Virus record (IMG/VR): IMGVR_UViG_3300049491_000460
Span: 1 to 30,938 of that record
Reading direction: 5' to 3' (one strand)
Length of the DNA: 30,938 bases
Source of the DNA: a virus
Shown: one piece after another, positions 2,530-18,398 of the stretch
Position numbering within the stretch: position 1 is the first letter of the stretch
How the letters are laid out: the number at the start of each line of letters is the position of its first letter
Translations under genes and position numbers: made by a program
The notes under the pieces: generated by a model
Database searches by the model: none
What the model saw: only the letters and a program-made list of their open reading frames with translations
What the model was told of the DNA's origin: nothing

Positions 2530-2766
2530 ATGAGTGACATCGAGACTGAAGACATGTGGTTAACACAAGAACGCAAGTCTAGCGAGACAATGCATTTTCA
2601 ATACATTGTTTCGAGCATGGGAACTATTCTACGAGTTCGGGCTGAGGACACTGTACTCTGGAAAAAGCTCGGAGTGGAAATTTTCGATACGTACCTTGCC
2701 GCGGTTAAACGCTTCACTGACGGTGATGACGATCGTATTGGGTTGCTCTACTTCGAGGAGATTTGA
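2530..2766 (+). CDS. Small unknown protein
   Basis: A 78-residue protein. A strong AGGAGG lies eight bases before the ATG at 2530, which decides the start; the same frame is open back to 2419 but that earlier ATG has no ribosome site. It begins MSDIETEDMWLTQERK and contains a likely strand-rich core (FQYIVSSMGTILRVRAEDTVLW) followed by a helix (IFDTYLAAVKRF) and an acidic turn. No family is recognised. The next gene starts one base after its stop, so the two are translationally coupled. Confidence 0.7.
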   Translation: MSDIETEDMWLTQERKSSETMHFQYIVSSMGTILRVRAEDTVLWKKLGVEIFDTYLAAVKRFTDGDDDRIGLLYFEEI

Positions 2767-2767
2767 C

Positions 2768-2956
2768 ATGTTGTTCTACGATGGTCCATGCATTCGTTCT
2801 GATCGCAAAGAGGTCTTCAACACTTCTGAGATTGAAGTGTTGGCTGAGATGATTCAAACTTTGCGATCGCTGGTGAAAGAAGCGCCTGATTACTTTCATC
2901 AAGAGCTTGACGATAAAAAGACTGAATGGGTAAAGCGTGCTTGGTTCGTATTATGA
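2768..2956 (+). CDS. Small unknown protein
   Basis: A 62-residue protein starting at the ATG just after the stop of the 2530 gene, with GAGGAG upstream inside that gene. The same frame is open further upstream, but only as a shadow of the 2530 gene. The protein is charged and helical (EIEVLAEMIQTLRSLVKEAP) and ends in a basic WVKRAWFVL. It shows weak resemblance to the C-terminal part of the 1940 gene product. It is the last gene before a 450-base non-coding region. Function unknown. Confidence 0.65.
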   Translation: MLFYDGPCIRSDRKEVFNTSEIEVLAEMIQTLRSLVKEAPDYFHQELDDKKTEWVKRAWFVL

Positions 2957-3357
2957 TCGGTTAGCCCTGTGCTACACTGCAAGCTAGTCTGCACTACATT
3001 GCCCCTGCGCAGTTTGCCGTAAGGTGACTTCTGTAGGACTCTGAGCATGTAGTGTGGGACACGGGGGCCGGCCCCAGGTGGCGACTGAAAAACCGGACGT
3101 AAACGTGCAAACAGTCTTCTTTTATGGTCAAGGCTCACCGGATTACCTTAAGAAGGCGAGCGGGTCGTGGGCATATACCCGCTCATTTACATGCAACTCA
3201 TTCCTATTTATTTGATCATCGCAATTGAATTGCAAAATTTCAATCTGGCCTTTGCACCTTTGAAGACAGACTTCTGCTGTGAAATTCCAGCAGGCAGTTT
3301 GTTCAAAGACTTACCTGCAGTCAACGAAAACACGATGTGAGTTGCTTCAAATCATGT
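2957..3357. other. Structured non-coding region, possible RNA element
   Basis: About 400 bases without a credible gene. It carries several stems in order: CACTACAT (2992-2999) with ATGTAGTG (3047-3054); GGGG-CCGG-CCCC (3064-3075) inside a CAC/GTG outer stem; GACTG (3083-3087) with CAGTC (3112-3116); and GAGCGGGT (3158-3165) with ACCCGCTC (3177-3184). The GC-rich part ends near 3190; what follows to 3357 is AT-rich. I cannot match it to tmRNA, tRNA, RNase P, 6S or a known riboswitch. It may be an untranslated RNA or a leader. A 49-codon plus ORF at 3191-3340 lacks a ribosome site. On the minus strand 3208-3351 is open but has no convincing start. Confidence 0.4.
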
Positions 3358-8553: not shown

Positions 8554-10114
8554 AATTGCCTGGAAGCCTCTTGCTGGTTCTCAGACTCTCGCCCTTAGTT
8601 GTCCGGCCCACGTAATCATATATCATGGTACGCGCGGCCCTGGCAAAACTGACGCTCAACTAATTCGTTTCCGACGCAATGTCGGGCAGGGCTATGGTGC
8701 CCATTGGCGTGGCATCATCTTTGATCGTGAATACAAAAACCTTGATGACTTGGTCGCCAAGTCTATGCGTTGGTTTCCCGAAATCAAAGAAGTAGGTAAC
8801 ACAAAAGGTGATGCACGTTTTCTCAGTAGTAAATCTGATTACAGATGGGTATGGCCTAATGGTGAACAACTGCTATTTCGTGCTATCAAAAAAGATACAG
8901 ACTATTGGGGATACCATGGTCAAGAATTTCCTTTCATTGGATGGAACGAACTAACAAAGTTTCCTACTGACATCTTATTTGATGCTATGATGTCTTGTAA
9001 TCGTAGTTCATTTCGTCCAGAAGATTACCCAATAATTGACAATAAGACAGATGTAATCAATTATCTTCCTGAGATTCCATTGGAAGTTTTTGCGACCTGT
9101 AATCCACACGGTGTAGGACACAATTGGGTCAAGAAACGATTTATCAACGTCGCACCGATGGGAACTATAGTGAAGCGCACTGTAAACGTATTTAATCCGA
9201 AGACACAGAAACGGGAAGATGTGGTTAAGACTCAAGTTCATCTTTTTGGGTCTTACAAAGAAAATATCTATCTTGCACCTGAGTACATCGCAGAACTAGA
9301 AACTATCACTGATGTTAACAAGCGCAAGGCTTGGTTGATGGGCGACTGGGATATTGTAGCTGGTGGAATGTTTGACGATGTATGGGATTCATTTCACCAC
9401 AAGGTCTCGCCATTTGAGATTCCGCATAGTTGGAGAATCAATCGATCTTTTGACTGGGGTTCAAGTAAACCTTTTAGTGTAGGTTGGTGGGCTAAGTCAG
9501 ATGGAAGCAGTGTTAAACTTCGCGATGGAACTTGGCGCAGCACTGTTCGTGGGGATCTGTTTCGTATTGCAGAATGGTACGGAACAAACGGAAAGACTAA
9601 TCAAGGTCTCATAATGCTTGCCAGCAAAGTTGCAGCTGGTATAATCGAGCGCGAAATCAAGCTTGGCATCCATGGACGGGTCAAGCCTGGCCCTGCTGAT
9701 AATAGCATCTGGGATACTGAAAACGGCAATAGCATCGCAGCTGATATGGCTAAAGCTGTAAGGTTAAAAGATGGCACTCTGCATCCTAATGGAGTTACTT
9801 GGGTTAGATCGGATAAAACAGCCGGAAGCCGCAAAGCAGGTTGGGAAAAAATTCGAGAGTATCTAGCTGCCGCATTGCCACAGTACGCTACAAAAGAAGA
9901 CGGTGAAAAAGTCCGTATCCCTCGTGAAAAATCCGGGTTATTTGTTTTCGATACTTGTTTCTATTTTCTTGATCTTTTTCCAACACTTCCTCGTGATGAA
10001 GAAGATCCTGATGATGTTGACACTGACGCGGAAGATCACATTGGTGATGAAACCCGCTACGAAGTTCTTGAGTCTGGTCTAGGCGCTACTATAGGTAGCA
10101 CGAAGGGTACATAA
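8540..10114 (+). CDS. terL: Terminase large subunit
   Basis: A 524-residue packaging motor: N-terminal ATPase and C-terminal nuclease. Walker A is G30-TRGPGKT-37. The Walker B strand reads FPFIGWNEL, with Asn where most families have Asp before the catalytic Glu. FATCNPHGVGHNWVKKRF is the coupling region. The nuclease domain shows SFDWGSSKPFSVGWW (first Asp), GPADNSIWD (second Asp) and an acidic C-terminal segment after FVFDTCFYFLDLFPTLP. The start at ATG 8540 gives the expected N-terminus; the frame is open to 8480, but the added residues lie within terS. This motif set is common in siphoviruses of Gram-negative bacteria. Its stop overlaps the portal start by one base. Confidence 0.93.
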   Translation: MLEPRIAWKPLAGSQTLALSCPAHVIIYHGTRGPGKTDAQLIRFRRNVGQGYGAHWRGIIFDREYKNLDDLVAKSMRWFPEIKEVGNTKGDARFLSSKSDYRWVWPNGEQLLFRAIKKDTDYWGYHGQEFPFIGWNELTKFPTDILFDAMMSCNRSSFRPEDYPIIDNKTDVINYLPEIPLEVFATCNPHGVGHNWVKKRFINVAPMGTIVKRTVNVFNPKTQKREDVVKTQVHLFGSYKENIYLAPEYIAELETITDVNKRKAWLMGDWDIVAGGMFDDVWDSFHHKVSPFEIPHSWRINRSFDWGSSKPFSVGWWAKSDGSSVKLRDGTWRSTVRGDLFRIAEWYGTNGKTNQGLIMLASKVAAGIIEREIKLGIHGRVKPGPADNSIWDTENGNSIAADMAKAVRLKDGTLHPNGVTWVRSDKTAGSRKAGWEKIREYLAAALPQYATKEDGEKVRIPREKSGLFVFDTCFYFLDLFPTLPRDEEDPDDVDTDAEDHIGDETRYEVLESGLGATIGSTKGT

Positions 10115-12914: not shown

Positions 12915-13766
12915 ATGGCACTGAAGACTGTGATCGCAAGCCTTGATGATGTTGATGAAGTGTTTCGTGAACACTACGTCGAAACCAAGGACCCAAAAGA
13001 CCCTGCAAAGGTTCAATTTGTTCTTGGCATTGAAGGGTCTATCGATCCTCTCCCTGGTGTCAAAGCTCTTCGAACAGAAAATGGTTCATTTCGAATCAAA
13101 CTTCGTGATACTGAACAAAAGTACGGCAAGCTCGAAGCGTTTAAAGACATGGACCCCGCGGAGGTTCTTTCTAAGCTTGATCGCATCGCCGAACTCGAAC
13201 TTGCAGCTGGCGGTAAGCTTGACGATAAAGCGATTGAAACGATCGTTGAAAGCAGAATCAAAACCAAGACTGCACCTCTTGAGCGGCAACTTCAGACTGT
13301 CACGCAAGAACGTGATACATTCAAAGTTCAAGTCGAAGAGTTTAGCACTCGTGACAAAAAGCGTTTGGTCGAAGACGATGTTCGTGCAGCCGCTGTCAAG
13401 ATGAAGATGTTGCCTGAAGCTGTTGAAGACGCAATCATGTATGCTGACCGCGTGATGGAAGTTAACGCGGAAGGTGTGGTTAGCGTCAAAGACAAGGTTG
13501 GGTTTACGCCAGGTTTGGATGTTGCATCTTGGCTAGGTGATATGCAAGCAAAACGTCCTCACTGGTGGCCTGCCTCCGCTGGGGGTGGTGGGCGAGGGAA
13601 TAGCGGCGGTGGAAATGGTGTTGGCGGGCCAAACCCGTGGAGTAATGAGAACTGGAACATTACTGAACAAAACCGTATCTACAAAGAAGACAAGAAAAAG
13701 GCTGAGCAGTTGGCAACTAATGCTGGTACGAAATTGGGAGGTACTCGCCCGGTAGCCAAAAAATAA
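12915..13766 (+). CDS. Scaffold-like head assembly protein
   Basis: A 283-residue protein with TGGAGA upstream of the ATG. The layout fits a phage scaffold: long charged helices (about 60-150, LEAFKDMDPAEVLSKLDRIAELE, then a coiled-coil-like QTVTQERDTFKVQVEEF), a short globular segment, then a Gly/Asn-rich linker (about 220-240) and a C-terminal NPWSNENWNITEQNRIYKED. That last motif is seen in scaffold-like proteins beside capsid genes. It would guide capsid assembly and leave or be cleaved. Normally the capsid gene follows directly; here 3.4 kb of other genes intervene. The stop codon lies within a 16-bp repeat found again before the capsid gene. Confidence 0.75.
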   Translation: MALKTVIASLDDVDEVFREHYVETKDPKDPAKVQFVLGIEGSIDPLPGVKALRTENGSFRIKLRDTEQKYGKLEAFKDMDPAEVLSKLDRIAELELAAGGKLDDKAIETIVESRIKTKTAPLERQLQTVTQERDTFKVQVEEFSTRDKKRLVEDDVRAAAVKMKMLPEAVEDAIMYADRVMEVNAEGVVSVKDKVGFTPGLDVASWLGDMQAKRPHWWPASAGGGGRGNSGGGNGVGGPNPWSNENWNITEQNRIYKEDKKKAEQLATNAGTKLGGTRPVAKK

Positions 13767-13775
13767 CACTGATCA
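13760..13775 (+). repeat. 16-bp direct repeat, left copy
   Basis: AAAATAACACTGATCA, identical to 17213-17228. It overlaps the stop codon of the scaffold gene and marks the left edge of the block inserted between scaffold and capsid genes. Confidence 0.7.
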
Positions 13776-13777
13776 CA

Positions 13778-13809
13778 GATTATCGCTGTTAACATACGCA
13801 GCGATAATC
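13778..13809. terminator. Strong stem-loop after the scaffold gene, no T tract
   Basis: GATTATCGCTG and CAGCGATAATC form a perfect 11-bp stem with a 10-base loop. No T run follows, so it may be an mRNA processing or stabilising hairpin or an operator rather than a true intrinsic terminator. Confidence 0.5.
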
Positions 13810-13828
13810 GTCAACAAGCGGGGTGATA

Positions 13829-14044
13829 ATGCGAATCTTTTGTTTAACTTCTTTCAAGGACGGTACGCGCCTCTTTGAAAATGGCGACGTTTGTACGTTG
13901 ACTGACATCGACGGGCAGCGTTTCATTGACAATGGCTGGGCTGCTGTTGAAGGTGAGGAAGTCAAAGCTGCGCCAGGCGCTCCAACAGTGGACTTGAACG
14001 TGCACGGCTCTTTTCTTGGCGTCGTTGATAGTAAGGTTTCCTAA
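13829..14044 (+). CDS. Small unknown protein in the head module
   Basis: A 71-residue protein; the ATG at 13829 has GGGGTG about six bases upstream, and an in-frame GTG at 13823 is rejected because it lies in that site. The sequence (FKDGTRLFENGDVCTLTDIDGQRFIDNGWA) suggests a small SH3-like beta unit, followed by an Ala/Pro-rich linker and a short end. It may be a small virion or neck-type protein. No family is recognised. It opens the block between the two 16-bp repeats. Confidence 0.65.
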   Translation: MRIFCLTSFKDGTRLFENGDVCTLTDIDGQRFIDNGWAAVEGEEVKAAPGAPTVDLNVHGSFLGVVDSKVS

Positions 14045-14046
14045 TC

Positions 14047-14424
14047 ATGTCAAAGTCAGCTAACGACATAATCATGGACGCGGCTTTGGATGTGGTTGCT
14101 ACTGCTACGCGGATGCTTGCGTGTAGCGCTCAGCCCACAACGTATGCCGAAGCGAACGCTACTTTCGCCCTTGCGGACGTTACAATGGCAGGTGGCGACT
14201 TCACTAAGTCGAACGGTGATACGAGCGGCCGAAAGACAACCGTAGCCGCTAAGTCCGGTGTACTTATCGACTTCAGCGGTACAGCGACGCATGTTGCTCT
14301 TGTTCGTGTCTCTGATACGACGCTGTTGTACGTAACTACGTGCACCTCACAGGCACTTACAGCCAACGGTTCCAATACGGTGAATTTCCCTGCATGGGAT
14401 ATCGAAATTGCCGACCCGGTTTAA
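14047..14424 (+). CDS. Unknown strand-rich virion-type protein
   Basis: A 125-residue protein, starting two bases after the previous stop with AAGG nine bases upstream. After an Ala-rich start it becomes strand-rich: FALADVTMAGGDF, SGRKTTVAAKSGVLIDFSG, THVALVRVSDTTLLYVTTC and NTVNFPAWDIEIADPV. The IDFSGTATHVALVR segment and the C-terminus read like a phage decoration or fibre-associated beta domain. I know no Pfam name for it. Codon use is GC-richer than in the portal or terminase genes. Confidence 0.65.
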   Translation: MSKSANDIIMDAALDVVATATRMLACSAQPTTYAEANATFALADVTMAGGDFTKSNGDTSGRKTTVAAKSGVLIDFSGTATHVALVRVSDTTLLYVTTCTSQALTANGSNTVNFPAWDIEIADPV

Positions 14425-14451
14425 TTCTCTTACATCAAGGACGCAAACACC

Positions 14452-15012
14452 ATGTCTGACGGCATTTTTTACCTCGACACGCGAGAGCCCCACATTGTCA
14501 CCGATATCGCTGCGGTCACGATGGCGGCAACAGCGAAGGCGCTTTACCCCGCTTCCGCGTTTCCGGTGCTAGGCGGGCAGTATTTCAATCGCCCCGGCAA
14601 GAAAATCAAAATCAGCTTGTGGTTGAAGGTGGTGCTTGCTGGAACCCCTGGCAACTTTTCGTTTAACCTCCATTGGGGAACGGGCGCTGACGCGAACGGT
14701 ACCCTGATATGCGTGGCCGGTACCCCTGTCGCCTTGCAGGCCAGCGTTACGAAGTGCATCTTCGCTGAGTTTACTATCCGCTGTCTGACAACGGGCACTG
14801 CCGGCACGTTGCAGGCGACAGGCTGGGCAATTGCGGACGGTCTGCTGATTACCGCTGGCACGCTCAACCCTATCTTGATTCCCACTGCGGGTGCGGCTGC
14901 CTCTGCAGCGCTGGACCTCACTGCTGCAAACATTGTATCGGTGCAGGTTCTGCAATCTGGCACTGCTGGCACAATCCAGGTGCAAGAAATGCAGGTTGAA
15001 GCCCTGAACTAA
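14452..15012 (+). CDS. Probable virion surface protein, beta-sandwich type
   Basis: A 186-residue protein with AAGGA about ten bases before the ATG. It is rich in beta strands and small residues (KKIKISLWLKVVL, NFSFNLHWGTGADANGTLI, KCIFAEFTIRCL, GTAGTLQATGWAIAD, NIVSVQVLQSGTAGTIQVQEMQVEAL), as in jelly-roll proteins on phage heads or fibres. The gene is markedly GC-rich: 37 of 60 bases at 14701-14760 are G or C, against 20 of 60 at 9001-9060 in terL. This suggests different ancestry from its neighbours. Exact function unknown. Confidence 0.65.
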   Translation: MSDGIFYLDTREPHIVTDIAAVTMAATAKALYPASAFPVLGGQYFNRPGKKIKISLWLKVVLAGTPGNFSFNLHWGTGADANGTLICVAGTPVALQASVTKCIFAEFTIRCLTTGTAGTLQATGWAIADGLLITAGTLNPILIPTAGAAASAALDLTAANIVSVQVLQSGTAGTIQVQEMQVEALN

Positions 15013-15021
15013 AGGGTTGTC

Positions 15022-15579
15022 GTGCCGGTCATTATCTTTCCGCTGCGAAACAAGCTTCGTGGGGCCGGCAACCTCATCTTTTTGCAACAACGTCCACGAT
15101 CTACTGGTGGTCGGCGTGTGGTGTTGTCTCCTGTACTACCATGGACGCGAATGACGCGCCCTCCCAGCCTAAATTTTAGTCGGTATGATCCAGCACCGTT
15201 GCTGAGTCAGACGTGCGGTCTAAACTATGGTCTTTGCGCACTGAACATCAAACAGCCGGAAACCTTTTCAGCGGCTCAAAGTGTCAACAACGGAACGCAA
15301 CCTGCTGTTGTTCACGCAATTAAACCAATGCCGTTTGTGCGATACACACTTACGGGCCGCACGCTTGATAATACTGGCGGCACTTTGCCGTTTGCGCCCG
15401 TTGATTTATACACAGCAGGAGACAAGCGATGGATAGGCAGTGCAGTGTCAGAAGCCGACGGAACTTATCGCATTCATACGGCCATGCGACAGCCTGCGCT
15501 GCATTTTGTCGTTGCGTATAAACCTGGTTCTCCTGATATAGCTGGAATCACGGCAACCTCGTTACAGGCAGACACATAA
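15022..15579 (+). CDS. Virion-type protein with carboxypeptidase-regulatory-like domain
   Basis: A 185-residue protein with GTG start and AAAGGG six bases upstream. The C-terminal half (about 105-180) has the pattern of a CarboxypepD_reg-like beta sandwich: TLTGRTLDNTGG, FAPVDLYTAGDKRWIGSAVSEADGTYRI, then ALHFVVAYK. Such domains are common on phage capsids and fibres as surface adhesins. The N-terminal half is basic and Pro-rich with no clear fold. It overlaps the next gene by one base. It forms a unit with the HxH-repeat gene and may anchor or cap it, which is inference. Confidence 0.65.
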   Translation: MPVIIFPLRNKLRGAGNLIFLQQRPRSTGGRRVVLSPVLPWTRMTRPPSLNFSRYDPAPLLSQTCGLNYGLCALNIKQPETFSAAQSVNNGTQPAVVHAIKPMPFVRYTLTGRTLDNTGGTLPFAPVDLYTAGDKRWIGSAVSEADGTYRIHTAMRQPALHFVVAYKPGSPDIAGITATSLQADT

Positions 15580-16871
15580 TGGCGTCGAACGATGTCATAT
15601 TATGGAGTACAGCGCTTCCCTCTCAACGTAATGTCATACTTCGCAACCCAAATATGTGGGAAGCGTACCTTGGTGTTGCCAATGCTAAGCACACGCACAA
15701 TGCCAGCGCTTCCAACCTGATAACTGATAGCGTACTCGCCCTTGACGACTCGTTGCATAACCATGCAGCTGATAATATCGTTTTGGCCGCTGGAGTCGCG
15801 CTTACTGTTGATGAAGCGGTGCACAACCACGCGGCCGACGCACTAGTTTTAACCCTCGCGTCTTCACTTGCTCTTGCTGACGCAACTCACGCACACAGCG
15901 TTGACGCGCTCACGTTAACGGCGGAAAGTCAACTTGCGCTAGCAGATGCACTACACGCGCACACGGTCGACAGCGAGGTGTTAACATCGGACACGGCCCT
16001 TGCTGTAGCTGAGGCATTGCACAGTCACACCGCGGATGTGCAAGTGCTATCTACCGGCACGGAGCTCTCCCTTGCCGACGCCTTGCACGACCACACAGCA
16101 GAGCCTCTTGGGCTGTCAACGGCGCTTGTACTGACGATAGCCGAGGCCCTACACGGGCACGCAACGGACGCCATTGCATTGTCAGTGATGAGCGTGCTGG
16201 TGATGACTGATACAGTGCACGGGCACACTAGCGACGCGTTAGACCTGTCTACATCCACGCTTCTCGCAGTGTTCGATGCTGTGCACGCACACGCAGCCGA
16301 TGCGCCCTTGCTGGCGATCGTGCTTACGCTGGCGCCTGCAGATGCTACGCATGGGCACAGTGCCGAGAATCTGACACTTGATACACTTCTGGCCATTGGC
16401 ATCGACAGCGCAACACATGCGCACAGAGCCAACAACCCTGGGCTAACCTCTGACTCGTTGCTGGCAATTGAAGAGGCCTTGCACGGACATCTATCAGACG
16501 ACACGGCGCTAACGACGTTGGTGTCACTAGCCGTAGCTGAAGCGTTGCACGCGCACGCTTCGGACCTTGTGAACATTGATGCTGGTCTGCGGCTCACAAT
16601 TGCTGAAGCTACACATGACCAGACCACAGAAATAGTGACATTGACGGTGTCAGTAACACTGACAGTCAATGACGCGAATGCGGCACACATTGCAGATACC
16701 ATCACTCTTACTGCCTCAATTTTCTCAATAGCATCGCTAGTGACCGGCGTAACTGTGGTTACGGTACAAATCATAGGCAACACTGTGATACCCGTATATG
16801 TTGCCGAAGCAGCGGCACCTGTGTATTCAGCTGGCTTCAGCGATTTCGATATTCGTGGCACTCTTCACTAA
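15579..16871 (+). CDS. Tandem 22-residue HxH-repeat protein, putative head fibre or surface protein
   Basis: A 430-residue protein. Residues 38-389 are sixteen back-to-back repeats of exactly 22 residues with no indels. Each opens with H-x-H-(A/T/S)-(A/V/S)-(D/E), has alternating hydrophobics in the middle and ends (L/V/I)-x-(L/V)-(A/T)-(D/E)-A-(L/T/V). Fourteen copies keep HxH; the fifteenth has HDQ and the last AAH. HxH rows in trimeric phage fibres such as the T4 gp37 tip bind iron, so a metal-lined trimeric fibre or solenoid is a reasonable model, not a demonstrated one. The N-terminal 37 residues (MWEAYLGVANAK) and C-terminal 40 (TVIPVYVAEAAAPVYSAGFSDFDIRG) are non-repetitive caps. DNA copies differ widely at synonymous sites. 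It sits in the head region. Confidence 0.75.
   Translation: MASNDVILWSTALPSQRNVILRNPNMWEAYLGVANAKHTHNASASNLITDSVLALDDSLHNHAADNIVLAAGVALTVDEAVHNHAADALVLTLASSLALADATHAHSVDALTLTAESQLALADALHAHTVDSEVLTSDTALAVAEALHSHTADVQVLSTGTELSLADALHDHTAEPLGLSTALVLTIAEALHGHATDAIALSVMSVLVMTDTVHGHTSDALDLSTSTLLAVFDAVHAHAADAPLLAIVLTLAPADATHGHSAENLTLDTLLAIGIDSATHAHRANNPGLTSDSLLAIEEALHGHLSDDTALTTLVSLAVAEALHAHASDLVNIDAGLRLTIAEATHDQTTEIVTLTVSVTLTVNDANAAHIADTITLTASIFSIASLVTGVTVVTVQIIGNTVIPVYVAEAAAPVYSAGFSDFDIRGTLH
15690..16745 (+). repeat. Sixteen 66-bp coding tandem repeats
   Basis: The DNA encoding the HxH repeats keeps a 66-bp period for the whole stretch. Copies are protein-level similar but nucleotide-diverged (for example His codons flanked by AGT, GCG, GAC or GGG), so they are not recent slippage products. 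Confidence 0.8.
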
Positions 16872-16877
16872 AAATAT

Positions 16878-17207
16878 ATGACTGAAATCACACGTAAACG
16901 CGGTGACACATACCCGATTGACATCGCTGTAACACGCGACGGCGTTGCTCTTGATATTACGGGTTGCACTTTTGTTCTTACAGTTGATCCAAGTAAGGCG
17001 CCATTGGACGATACAGCTAATTTATTTCAGCTTGCTGGCGTCATTGTCAACGGTTCCGCTGGCACGGTGAGTTTCACGCCTACAGCAGGCGATACTGACC
17101 ACGTTGGGAAGTTTTTTTACGACGTGCAAATGACTGACACATCGGGTGCAATACGTACCATCGCCGCTGACAAATTTACGCTTGTGCAGGATATCACCAA
17201 GTTGTAA
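16878..17207 (+). CDS. BppU-N-like beta-sandwich protein
   Basis: A 109-residue protein. KRGDTYPIDIAVTRDGVALDITGCTFVLTVDP, then GVIVNGSAGTVSFTPTAGDTDHVGKFFYDVQMTD and FTLVQDITK, match the pattern of BppU N-terminal-like domains, which plug host-binding fibres into a virion. Here it directly follows the HxH-repeat gene (six-base gap), so it may attach that fibre, though by position this would be on the head, not a baseplate. The ATG lacks a clear ribosome site and follows an A-rich spacer, so coupling to the upstream gene is likely. Confidence 0.7.
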   Translation: MTEITRKRGDTYPIDIAVTRDGVALDITGCTFVLTVDPSKAPLDDTANLFQLAGVIVNGSAGTVSFTPTAGDTDHVGKFFYDVQMTDTSGAIRTIAADKFTLVQDITKL

Positions 17208-17212
17208 TCAAT

Positions 17213-17228
17213 AAAATAACACTGATCA
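17213..17228 (+). repeat. 16-bp direct repeat, right copy
   Basis: Identical to 13760-13775. Here the repeat supplies the left arm of the stem-loop at 17218-17246; the left copy lacks the matching right arm. Confidence 0.7.
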
Positions 17229-17298
17229 ATGGTTGTGATCAGTGTTGTAGTGGTATTACAGTCTGCTGCATGGTGTTAGGGCTGGCTTTAATACCACT
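17218..17298. other. Two stem-loops in the capsid gene leader
   Basis: First stem: AACACTGATCA (17218-17228) with TGATCAGTGTT (17236-17246), 11 bp and a 7-base loop. Second stem: AGTGGTATTA (17249-17258) with TAATACCACT (17289-17298), 10 bp and a 30-base loop. Neither has a T tract. They lie 75-155 bases before the capsid ATG and could stabilise or process the capsid mRNA, which is needed in large amounts. Confidence 0.55.
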
Positions 17299-17372
17299 CT
17301 CATTCAACCGACAGCGAGCCATGGGGTGCGCTTCGAGTCTTATCAACTTGAGCCATTTCAGGAGAACACCAC

Positions 17373-18398
17373 ATGGCTTCCGGAACCACTGCTGTAGCTG
17401 ACGTCGTCGTACCCGAACTCTTCGGTCCGTACGTTCAGCAACTCACTGAAGAAAAGTCGCGCCTGATTCAGTCTGGCGCTGTTGCTCGTGATTCTTTTCT
17501 GGACAGTTTTCTTGCTGGTGGTGGTCTGACGATCAATGCGCCATCTTGGAAAGACCTGGAAAATGACGCAGACAACGTGTCAAGCGATACAACTGGCACC
17601 AGCACTCCGAACAAAATCGGTTCTGCTGATGAAATCGCAGTTCGTTTGTCGCGAAACAACAGCTGGGCGACTGCTGATCTGAGCGCTGCACTTGCTGGAT
17701 CGGATCCGGCGAATGCGATCGCATCGCGTGTTGCAGATTACTGGGTGCGTCGTGCTCAGGCTGCATTCGTTGCAGTAATGACCGGAATCTTTGCAGACAA
17801 CGCGGCTGCTCCTTCTGCTACTGAACACGTTCAAAACGACATGACGTTTGACGTTTCCGGCAGTAGTTTTGTTGATGGTGTTACCAACTTCAGCGCTGAA
17901 TCGTTTATCGATGCTTGCCTGACGATGGGCGACAGCATGGAAAGTCTTGGCATGATCATGGTCCACTCAGTGGTCTATGCTCGTATGCAAAAGAACAACC
18001 TCATCGACTTCATTCCTGACTCACAAGGTCAAATCAACATTCCGACCTTCTTGGGCCGGATGGTGATTGTTGATGACGGTATGCCCGTGACTTCGGGTGT
18101 TTACCAGTCCTGGTTGTTTGGCGCAGGTGCAGTTCGTCTGGGTGTCGGCGCGCCGAAAACGCCTACTGAAGTTCTCCGCATTCCGTCGGCAGGTAACGGT
18201 GGTGGCCAAGAACAACTCTACAATCGTGTCGAGTGGTGCTTCCACCCGGTTGGTAACAAGTATGCCGGTACCCCTGCATCTGGTGGTCCGTCGAATGCTG
18301 CGACGAGCAACAACTTGGCGGCTGCGGGTTCTTGGCAGCGAGTGTTCACTGAACGTAAACAGATCAAGATCGCGCGACTCATTACCCGCGAAGCATGA
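17373..18398 (+). CDS. Major capsid protein
   Basis: A 341-residue protein with AGGAG eight bases before the ATG. It has the features of a phage major capsid protein of HK97 fold: VVVPELFGPYVQQLTEEKSRLIQSGAV at the N-terminus, LARNN-like RLSRNNSWATADLSAALAGSDPANAIASRVADYW in the long helix, SFIDACLTMGDSMESLGMIMVHSVVYARMQK and FLGRMVIVDDGMP in the P/A domains, and YNRVEWCFHPVGNKY near the C-terminus. It forms the icosahedral shell. The gene lies in its own leader-terminator setting (stem-loops before, hairpin terminator after), as expected for the most abundant product. Confidence 0.9.
   Translation: MASGTTAVADVVVPELFGPYVQQLTEEKSRLIQSGAVARDSFLDSFLAGGGLTINAPSWKDLENDADNVSSDTTGTSTPNKIGSADEIAVRLSRNNSWATADLSAALAGSDPANAIASRVADYWVRRAQAAFVAVMTGIFADNAAAPSATEHVQNDMTFDVSGSSFVDGVTNFSAESFIDACLTMGDSMESLGMIMVHSVVYARMQKNNLIDFIPDSQGQINIPTFLGRMVIVDDGMPVTSGVYQSWLFGAGAVRLGVGAPKTPTEVLRIPSAGNGGGQEQLYNRVEWCFHPVGNKYAGTPASGGPSNAATSNNLAAAGSWQRVFTERKQIKIARLITREA

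Follow-up and report, generated by a model that had tools for sequence, protein, structure and literature searches.

Genes and signals between the scaffold and capsid genes

The window analysed here is a stretch of virus DNA 30,938 nucleotides long (IMG/VR record IMGVR_UViG_3300049491_000460), a 30.9-kb record that is partial when set against its 57–64-kb relatives. Its major capsid protein (MCP) is 72% identical to that of Pseudomonas phage PaMx25, and its head genes follow the order of PaMx25 and NP1 (portal, morphogenesis, scaffold, MCP, connectors), which places it with the Nipunavirus/Queuovirinae-like siphophages, phages that carry deazaguanine/queuosine DNA modification genes. The scaffold-MCP gap of PaMx25 and NP1 is about 150 bp and empty, whereas that of the window holds six genes. 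The head scaffold gene (positions 12915 to 13766; PHROG 206 head scaffolding protein, E 8.7e-43) and the MCP gene (17373 to 18398; PHROG 247, E 1e-109) lie on the plus strand, as do all six open reading frames between them, the number given in the first-pass annotation.

The six are named b1 to b6 as follows: b1 (13829 to 14044, 71 aa) resembles phrog_2616, a PHROG of unknown function (E 1.8e-4), and b2 (14047 to 14424, 125 aa) is a small beta-sandwich in its AlphaFold2 model (pLDDT 96). The product of b3 (14452 to 15012, 186 aa) is probably all-beta and has relatives only in loci L172 (90%) and L173 (87%); its structure model was set aside (pLDDT 43, built from three near-identical sequences only). 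b4 (15022 to 15579, 185 aa) has a weak carboxypeptidase-regulatory-like (beta-sandwich) segment (Pfam E 0.049, below the cut-off) and travels with b3, which it adjoins in L172 and L173. b5 (15579 to 16871, 430 aa) encodes a repeat fibre with 14 His-x-His (HxH) motifs at an exact spacing of 22 residues and has no sequence match in the PDB, and b6 (16878 to 17207, 109 aa) has a BppU_N domain (PF10651, 25.9 bits against a cut-off of 23.1); sequence scans with b5 or b6 alone gave no or few relatives. Pfam and PHROG recognised no transposase or recombinase in the block, where b3 to b5 are mostly without assignment, and a scan with consensus signals that may not be the organism's gave no clear promoter or terminator pair of the block's own.

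The 16-mer AAAATAACACTGATCA is present in exactly two plus-strand copies in the window, at 13760–13775, where it contains the last codon and TAA stop of the scaffold gene, and at 17213–17228. Part of the right copy forms the 5' arm in a perfect 11-bp hairpin (17218–17246, arms 17218–17228 and 17236–17246), and the left copy lacks the partner arm. The first-pass annotation had described both the repeat and this asymmetry, and both descriptions are accurate. A different 11-bp hairpin (13778–13809; inverted repeat I12, arms 13778–13788 and 13799–13809) lies directly 3' of the left copy and 5' of b1, and is absent from the predicted terminators listed for the window.

To the right of the right copy lies a weak promoter-like element, TTGTGA-18-TACAGT (17233 to 17262, plus strand), which aligns with TTGCAA-17-TACATT of the relatives (alignment A1) and is absent from the consensus promoter scan output. 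It is followed by the MCP leader (17306 to 17372, plus strand), made up of a conserved CATGG hairpin, a second hairpin and a ribosome-binding site; a covariance model whose training set includes the window itself scores 51.1 bits at 17310–17362, and the leader motif lies between −50 and −66 in 52 of 68 cases. The leader has no Rfam match and RNAalifold gave no common structure on a 39-row alignment. The hand-named structure has moderate covariation on 18 rows (10 of 500 shuffles scored at least as high), pairs changed on both sides were not above shuffles there (138 of 500), and the mean folding z of 51 leaders is only −0.79.

A derived insertion of foreign composition

Scaffold and capsid genes are indeed normally adjacent, as the first-pass annotation had assumed: the gap does not exceed 323 bp in 79 of the 81 related loci that have both genes and 126–229 bp in all 34 isolates. 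In the MCP tree the window is nested among loci whose gap is empty (L010, L008, L007 and L023; support 97/93). The distance from the TAA within the right repeat copy (17217–17219) to the MCP start is 153 bp, very near the position of the scaffold stop in the relatives (median 147, quartiles 137–159, 65 loci), and both the leader motif and the promoter-like element align with those of the relatives to the right of this copy. Because the old stop position is kept at that distance and the relatives' leader is intact behind it, the insert lies between the scaffold stop and the capsid leader. The six-gene block is thus a derived insertion, and the earlier suggestion that an ancestral scaffold-hairpin-capsid junction had been split stands. 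Two other scaffold-MCP inserts are known among the loci compared (L063 and L040). Neither is flanked by a repeat, which shows that insertion at this site can do without a duplication.

The block is also foreign in composition. It has a G+C fraction of 0.531, where the remainder of the window has 0.459, its GC3 is 0.53 against 0.38, and the codon use of b3 to b5 is atypical; GC3 of the native MCP gene is also high (0.51). The counts by which part of the block had been called GC-richer (37/60 at 14701–14760 and 20/60 at 9001–9060) are exact, and the GC and codon profiles agree with that view, but outside the block 631 of 27,350 60-bp windows have at least 37 G+C, so such a window is not unique. 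Phage morons are genes of differing composition, with a promoter and terminator of their own, that separate two genes which are neighbours in related phages, and the block was inserted in the same manner; it differs from them in holding six structural-type genes, and the scan above showed no clear promoter or terminator of its own.

The direct repeat at the junctions

Does the repeat record the insertion? A 16-bp exact repeat somewhere in 31 kb is not rare, since the longest repeat is at least 16 in 29 of 200 dinucleotide shuffles of the window. When only the two junction regions are compared, each marked independently by comparison with relatives, the longest shared word is 16, and none of 1000 shuffles gave one longer than 13. 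We propose that a 3437-bp cassette (13776–17212) entered directly behind the scaffold stop and before the capsid's promoter-like hairpin and leader, and that the repeat is its scar, most simply a duplication of the scaffold 3' end and one hairpin arm. Such a duplication would leave the scaffold gene its stop and the capsid gene its whole 5' region, and if capsid expression is independent of read-through the insertion should disturb neither gene. This reading as a whole, a composite fibre cassette inserted here, with the 16-mer as scar and a surface appendage as cargo, seems to us reasonably likely.

An unlikely though coherent alternative accepts the same insertion and takes the 16-mer as a functional repeat (an operator half-site or the arm of a processing hairpin) that was kept or copied for regulation. 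It would fit the 29-bp dyad of which the right copy makes up one half, the different dyads that surround the promoter at this position in relatives and the hairpin at the left junction, but the 16-mer reaches beyond the dyad arm to cover the scaffold's last codon and stop, and the left copy is without the second arm. Somewhat less likely still is a coincidental match at a real insertion, the block having entered by illegitimate recombination without duplication. The whole-window shuffles and the repeat-free inserts of L063 and L040 are in keeping with coincidence; against it, none of the 1000 junction shuffles reaches even 14, and the right copy sits at the expected old stop codon.

If the 16-mer served for exchange at this site, as had been proposed with the label of an exchangeable module, it should recur. 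Apart from the window's own two copies, its 11-bp core is in none of 86 loci; the two other inserts are, as stated, repeat-free; no second genome was found with the 16-mer at these junctions or with this cargo, or a different gene set, between two copies; and other cargo inside the same flanking site was found nowhere else among the genomes compared. That part of the proposal is not supported. The exact 16-mer is present in 17 IMG/VR contigs; in the DNA examined, none of them has a relative of the scaffold, the MCP or the block. If the block were a cassette of transposon-like or site-specific recombination type, and the 16-mer its target duplication or att site, this would explain exact direct repeats at both ends, but these 17 contigs, the lack of any recombinase recognised by Pfam or PHROG in the six genes, and the lack, among the inverted repeats listed, of one joining the insert ends make it very improbable. 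Equally improbable is an ancestral block lost in the relatives, which the first-pass annotation had tied to its presence in all of them: they do not all carry it, and although surface cargo is common in the MCP-Ad1 slot of this group, losses would be needed across 79 of 81 loci and all 34 isolates, and the nested position in the tree and the foreign composition argue against it.

Relatives, fold and mount of the cargo

The cargo genes have their own relatives. b2 has 67 in IMG/VR, with identity up to 89%; b1 is present in 24 of these 67 loci, often just upstream of b2, b1 or b5 adjoins b2 in 38, and none of the 67 has a window-type MCP or scaffold. Phages whose capsids are unrelated repeatedly carry relatives of b1, b2 and b5 as a set, a recurring gene module. 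In L110 the module lies between the MCP and Ad1 connector genes, and the b5-type repeat protein there has a laminin-G/ConA-like lectin domain; one in L177 weakly matches Ig, and L123 encodes a YadA-head protein right beside the repeat protein. In L174, L175 and L036 a relative of b6 immediately precedes the Ad1 connector (head-tail adaptor) gene. A small gene before Ad1 in L010, considered as a further b6 relative, has no sequence relationship to it. The MCP-Ad1 interval is another slot of this phage group in which surface cargo is common.

Where the neighbours of b2 are named among the top 25 families of each PHROG and Pfam tally they are portal, capsid and connector genes, and many of the neighbour families listed are without a named function. 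These tallies were drawn from 49 chosen b2 loci (140 ORFs upstream, 150 downstream) and count families, not loci (the downstream set had 151 ORFs, of which one duplicate, L112:6847-8205, was left out). A selected panel of connector and MCP sequences matched only 12 of 82 b2 loci (L104 included) and was too narrow for measuring context. The GP4 fibre-tail adaptor Gp77 was matched by 6 of the 150 downstream ORFs, which 20 candidates tried one by one did not pin down; their identification with b6 was dropped for poor alignment. Among the titles and abstract beginnings listed from open-licence PMC, none mentions this insertion or the b2 family.

The best solved fold matches of the b2 model are neck chains, namely Shigella phage Sf14 chain 9c39_K (Z 9.8, rmsd 2.8 Å over 107 residues) and the Bas63 neck chain (Z 9.6), so b2 is predicted to have the fold of fibre-attachment or whisker domains. 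This fold is also among solved tail structures (9rkv, 8jou), the BFVD matches of b2 include tail-fibre proteins, and b2-like folds include a fibre-tail adaptor entry. The accessible part of the Sf14 report locates its whiskers (gp30/gp31, PDB 9C39) on the neck and describes no b5-type repeat fibre (PMC11821841). The homologue of chain K in phage Sf19 is encoded between portal and capsid genes. Sf14 differs from the siphophage-like window phage in its contractile tail, and b2 has no detectable sequence kinship with the whisker protein (hhalign probability 0.4%); for this reason b2 was not filed as an Sf14 gp31-type whisker, in spite of the shared fold.

The regularly spaced HxH motifs of b5 resemble those of metal-binding trimeric fibres; the T4 gp37 tip and Alteromonas phage R22Y have repeated His-x-His motifs that are shown or proposed to hold iron in a trimer (PMC11705849). 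The neck fibre of Anabaena phage A-1(L) is multi-gene, with an attachment protein, repeated beads and a tip (PMC10966104); its likeness to the block is one of gene make-up. In our proposal b2 and b6 would be small attachment domains, b5 a trimeric shaft with a ladder of His-x-His metal sites, and b3 and b4 would contribute beta domains, the whole building a virion-surface appendage. The BppU_N domain of b6, which takes its name from a baseplate protein, is an attachment domain of receptor-binding proteins. With the predicted b2 fold, the period-22 motifs of b5 and the relatives in unrelated phages, it agrees with the earlier impression of surface beta domains and a repeat fibre, and the cargo is probably a composite fibre cassette of surface-fibre parts.

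Judged by the relatives of its genes, whose neighbours include genes for portal, capsid and head-tail connectors, the fibre is likely to be mounted on the neck or head. A tail-tip or baseplate receptor-binding module merely located in the head gene region is a doubtful but serious competitor, favoured by the baseplate origin of the BppU_N name and by the tail-fibre chains and fibre-tail adaptor entry among b2-like folds; the named gene neighbours and the neck chains that are b2's best solved matches speak for the neck or head. The cargo's likely job would be binding host or environmental glycans. More tentatively, the block may be a self-contained neck- or head-fibre kit (b2/b6 for attachment, b5 as a 14-site metal-ladder shaft, b3/b4 as beta domains) that travels between unrelated phages as a loose set, for which the gap between the scaffold stop and an insulated capsid promoter/leader would be a second, rarely used landing place, in addition to the usual one ahead of the head-tail adaptor gene.

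The window thus offers a tree-placed case of a foreign, probable fibre module that has settled in the most conserved section of a phage head operon. If the repeat is read as we propose, the junction still shows the scar, and the capsid leader downstream of it is intact. Dozens of phages have members of the almost unannotated b1/b2 family, which the module ties to fibre attachment; b5, a very regular His-x-His fibre, is a candidate for metal-binding tests.

The insertion between the scaffold and capsid genes

The head genes of the window, a partial IMG/VR virus record, match those of Nipunavirus/Queuovirinae siphophages (scaffold PHROG 206, major capsid protein [MCP] PHROG 247 in PHROG matches; the MCP is 72% identical to that of PaMx25), and the six genes between its scaffold (12915-13766) and MCP (17373-18398) genes are a derived insertion. 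The first-pass annotation held that these two genes are normally adjacent, and comparison with relatives bears this out. An MCP scan of viral contigs gave 193 relatives, of which 80 were taken into the comparison; both genes are present in 81 loci, four isolates included, and are separated by at most 323 bp in 79 of them and by 902 bp (L040) and 3528 bp (L063) in the other two. Among the matches listed for both genes (60 of 142 scaffold records and 60 of 727 MCP records), 34 isolates remained after RefSeq duplicates were dropped, and the gap is 126-229 bp in all 34. In an 85-row MCP tree, whose bootstrap values are not fully settled, the window groups with L010, L008, L007 and L023, all of which have an empty site, and this clade is supported (97/93). 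Because L040 and L063 fall together in another clade (100/99), the site has been used at least twice. L040 carries a fatty-acid hydroxylase family gene there (2558-3166; PF04116, E 6e-20), and the 3.5-kb insert of L063 (3474-7001), which has no Pfam match and no flanking repeat, encodes a repeat protein and two mutually similar-looking proteins.

The 16-bp direct repeat reported earlier is exact at 13760-13775, where it contains the scaffold stop codon, and at 17213-17228, 5 bp beyond the end of b6, and has no third copy without mismatch in the window. The expected six genes, all on the + strand and tightly packed, occupy the intervening 3437 bp: b1 (13829-14044), b2 (14047-14424), b3 (14452-15012), b4 (15022-15579), b5 (15579-16871) and b6 (16878-17207). 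As noted, an 11-bp hairpin has the right copy as one of its arms. No such partner accompanies the left copy, which is followed by a separate hairpin of its own. Exact 16-bp repeats are not unusual in a sequence of 31 kb, as 29 of 200 shuffles contained one at least that long. A junction-to-junction match longer than 13 bp occurred in none of 1000 shuffles, and the 16-bp match at the two junctions is rare by chance; these junctions were picked because the repeat had been seen there, and the same two places are marked independently by comparison with relatives.

Read by eye, the gap in the relatives begins with the scaffold stop; promoter-like hexamers accompanied by a dyad come next, then a leader whose CATGG loop is conserved, and finally a ribosome-binding site ahead of the MCP start. 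In the window everything from the hexamers to the ribosome-binding site lies beyond the right repeat, on its MCP side. From the TAA within the right copy to the MCP start there are 153 bp, much like the stop-to-start distance in 65 relatives (median 147 bp, quartiles 137-159), which identifies the right copy as the former scaffold end; the block therefore went in behind the scaffold stop and ahead of the capsid leader, most simply with duplication of the scaffold end. The repeat is scar-like, and the capsid leader is intact behind the insertion. The promoter-like element of the window is weak, known from the alignment only, and not listed by a consensus promoter scan.

The leader itself (17306-17372) is RNA-like and conserved, with a CATGG loop hairpin, a second hairpin and the ribosome-binding site. 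In 52 of 68 loci the loop motif (CATG plus one of G, T or C) is found 50-66 nt 5' of MCP, whereas random positions have it in 5% of cases. Searching with a covariance model trained on 18 leaders returned 30 hits on the forward strand with E no higher than 1, every one at an MCP leader; 18 of these leaders belong to the training set, and three are nearly identical to training members. Seven further hits were on the reverse strand over the same places. Covariation support is moderate, no Rfam family matched, and the leader is possibly a capsid translation control element. Elsewhere, the intergenic stretch 1085-1310 has a 22-bp direct repeat (at 1118 and 1206) and three TTATGCACA DnaA-box-like sites (1102, 1155 and 1269), a box count not above chance over the whole window; it is a possible replication origin.

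Composition and relatives of the six genes

The cargo is foreign in composition. The block is GC-richer than the rest of the window (0.531 versus 0.459), as had been claimed for part of it, and the codon-usage comparison proposed with that claim gave a GC3 of 0.53 versus 0.38, with at most 0.449 in runs of at least 1000 codons of other genes. Codon use in b3-b5 fits the phage more poorly than that of nearly all other genes, unlike that of b1 and b6, which is not atypical.

Relatives of b2 number 67 in IMG/VR (identity up to 89%) and 14 in bacterial or MAG contigs, and Microcystis phage Mae-JY22 has one together with a b5 relative. The 67 IMG/VR loci include b1 in 24, b5 in 30, either in 38 and both in 16; none has b3, b4, b6, or a window-type MCP or scaffold. 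Genes b3 and b4 occur together in L172 (in the order portal, structural protein, b3, b4, head/protease gene) and L173, and b6 relatives lie directly 5' of the head-tail adaptor gene Ad1 in L174, L175 and L036. Because relatives of b1/b2/b5, b3/b4 and b6 occur in different loci, the block is a composite. Many b2 neighbours are without a name; among the named ones are portal, major head, terminase and head-tail adaptor families, and L110 carries the module in the interval from MCP to Ad1.

The MCP-Ad1 interval is the usual cargo slot in this phage group (771 to 5910 bp) and can hold surface-type genes (pectate-lyase-like in L012, BNR in L031). L010, the window's tree sister, has a b2 relative there (hhalign probability 97.5%), and tblastn found no close match to b1-b6 in L010. 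In this interval the window carries just a short gene. Either its fibre module was gained in a new place, or it replaced one. By eye, MCP-Ad1 cargo proteins of seven loci (L013, L031, L048, L050, L057, L075 and L076) have very different C-termini and share an arginine-rich N-terminal stretch (e.g., ALYYSRKRNR), perhaps a virion anchor.

A recurring fibre-type module

The structure predicted for b2 is confident (pLDDT 96, alignment of 38 rows), and among solved structures its fold comes closest to neck chains from phages Sf14 (Z 9.8) and Bas63 (Z 9.6), followed by a 7-7-1 tail-fibre chain (Z 8.0), the HFTV1 tail (Z 6.8) and the GP4 fibre/adaptor entry (Z 6.5); Foldseek E-values reach no better than about 1e-3. 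Matches among predicted viral structures include tail-fibre proteins. The Sf14 chain has a homologue in gp34 of phage Sf19, encoded between portal and capsid genes, and from gene order we infer that it is whisker gp31 of the Sf14 paper (PMC11821841). The fold of b2 is like that of the Sf14 chain; kinship in sequence between b2 and the whisker is undetectable. The b5 protein has 14 His-x-His motifs spaced 22 residues apart; many of its relatives share the repeat, at 22 to 24 residues, a few lack the motif, and the L110 relative has an additional laminin-G lectin domain. His-x-His fibres are linked to iron in PMC11705849. The b6 protein scores above the cut-off for BppU_N (PF10651).

The cargo is a recurring fibre-type module. 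The scaffold end may have been duplicated during illegitimate recombination at the hairpin, and b1-b6 would be expressed by read-through from the scaffold operon. Their products would assemble a trimeric, metal-held fibre on the neck or head, which may bind glycan.
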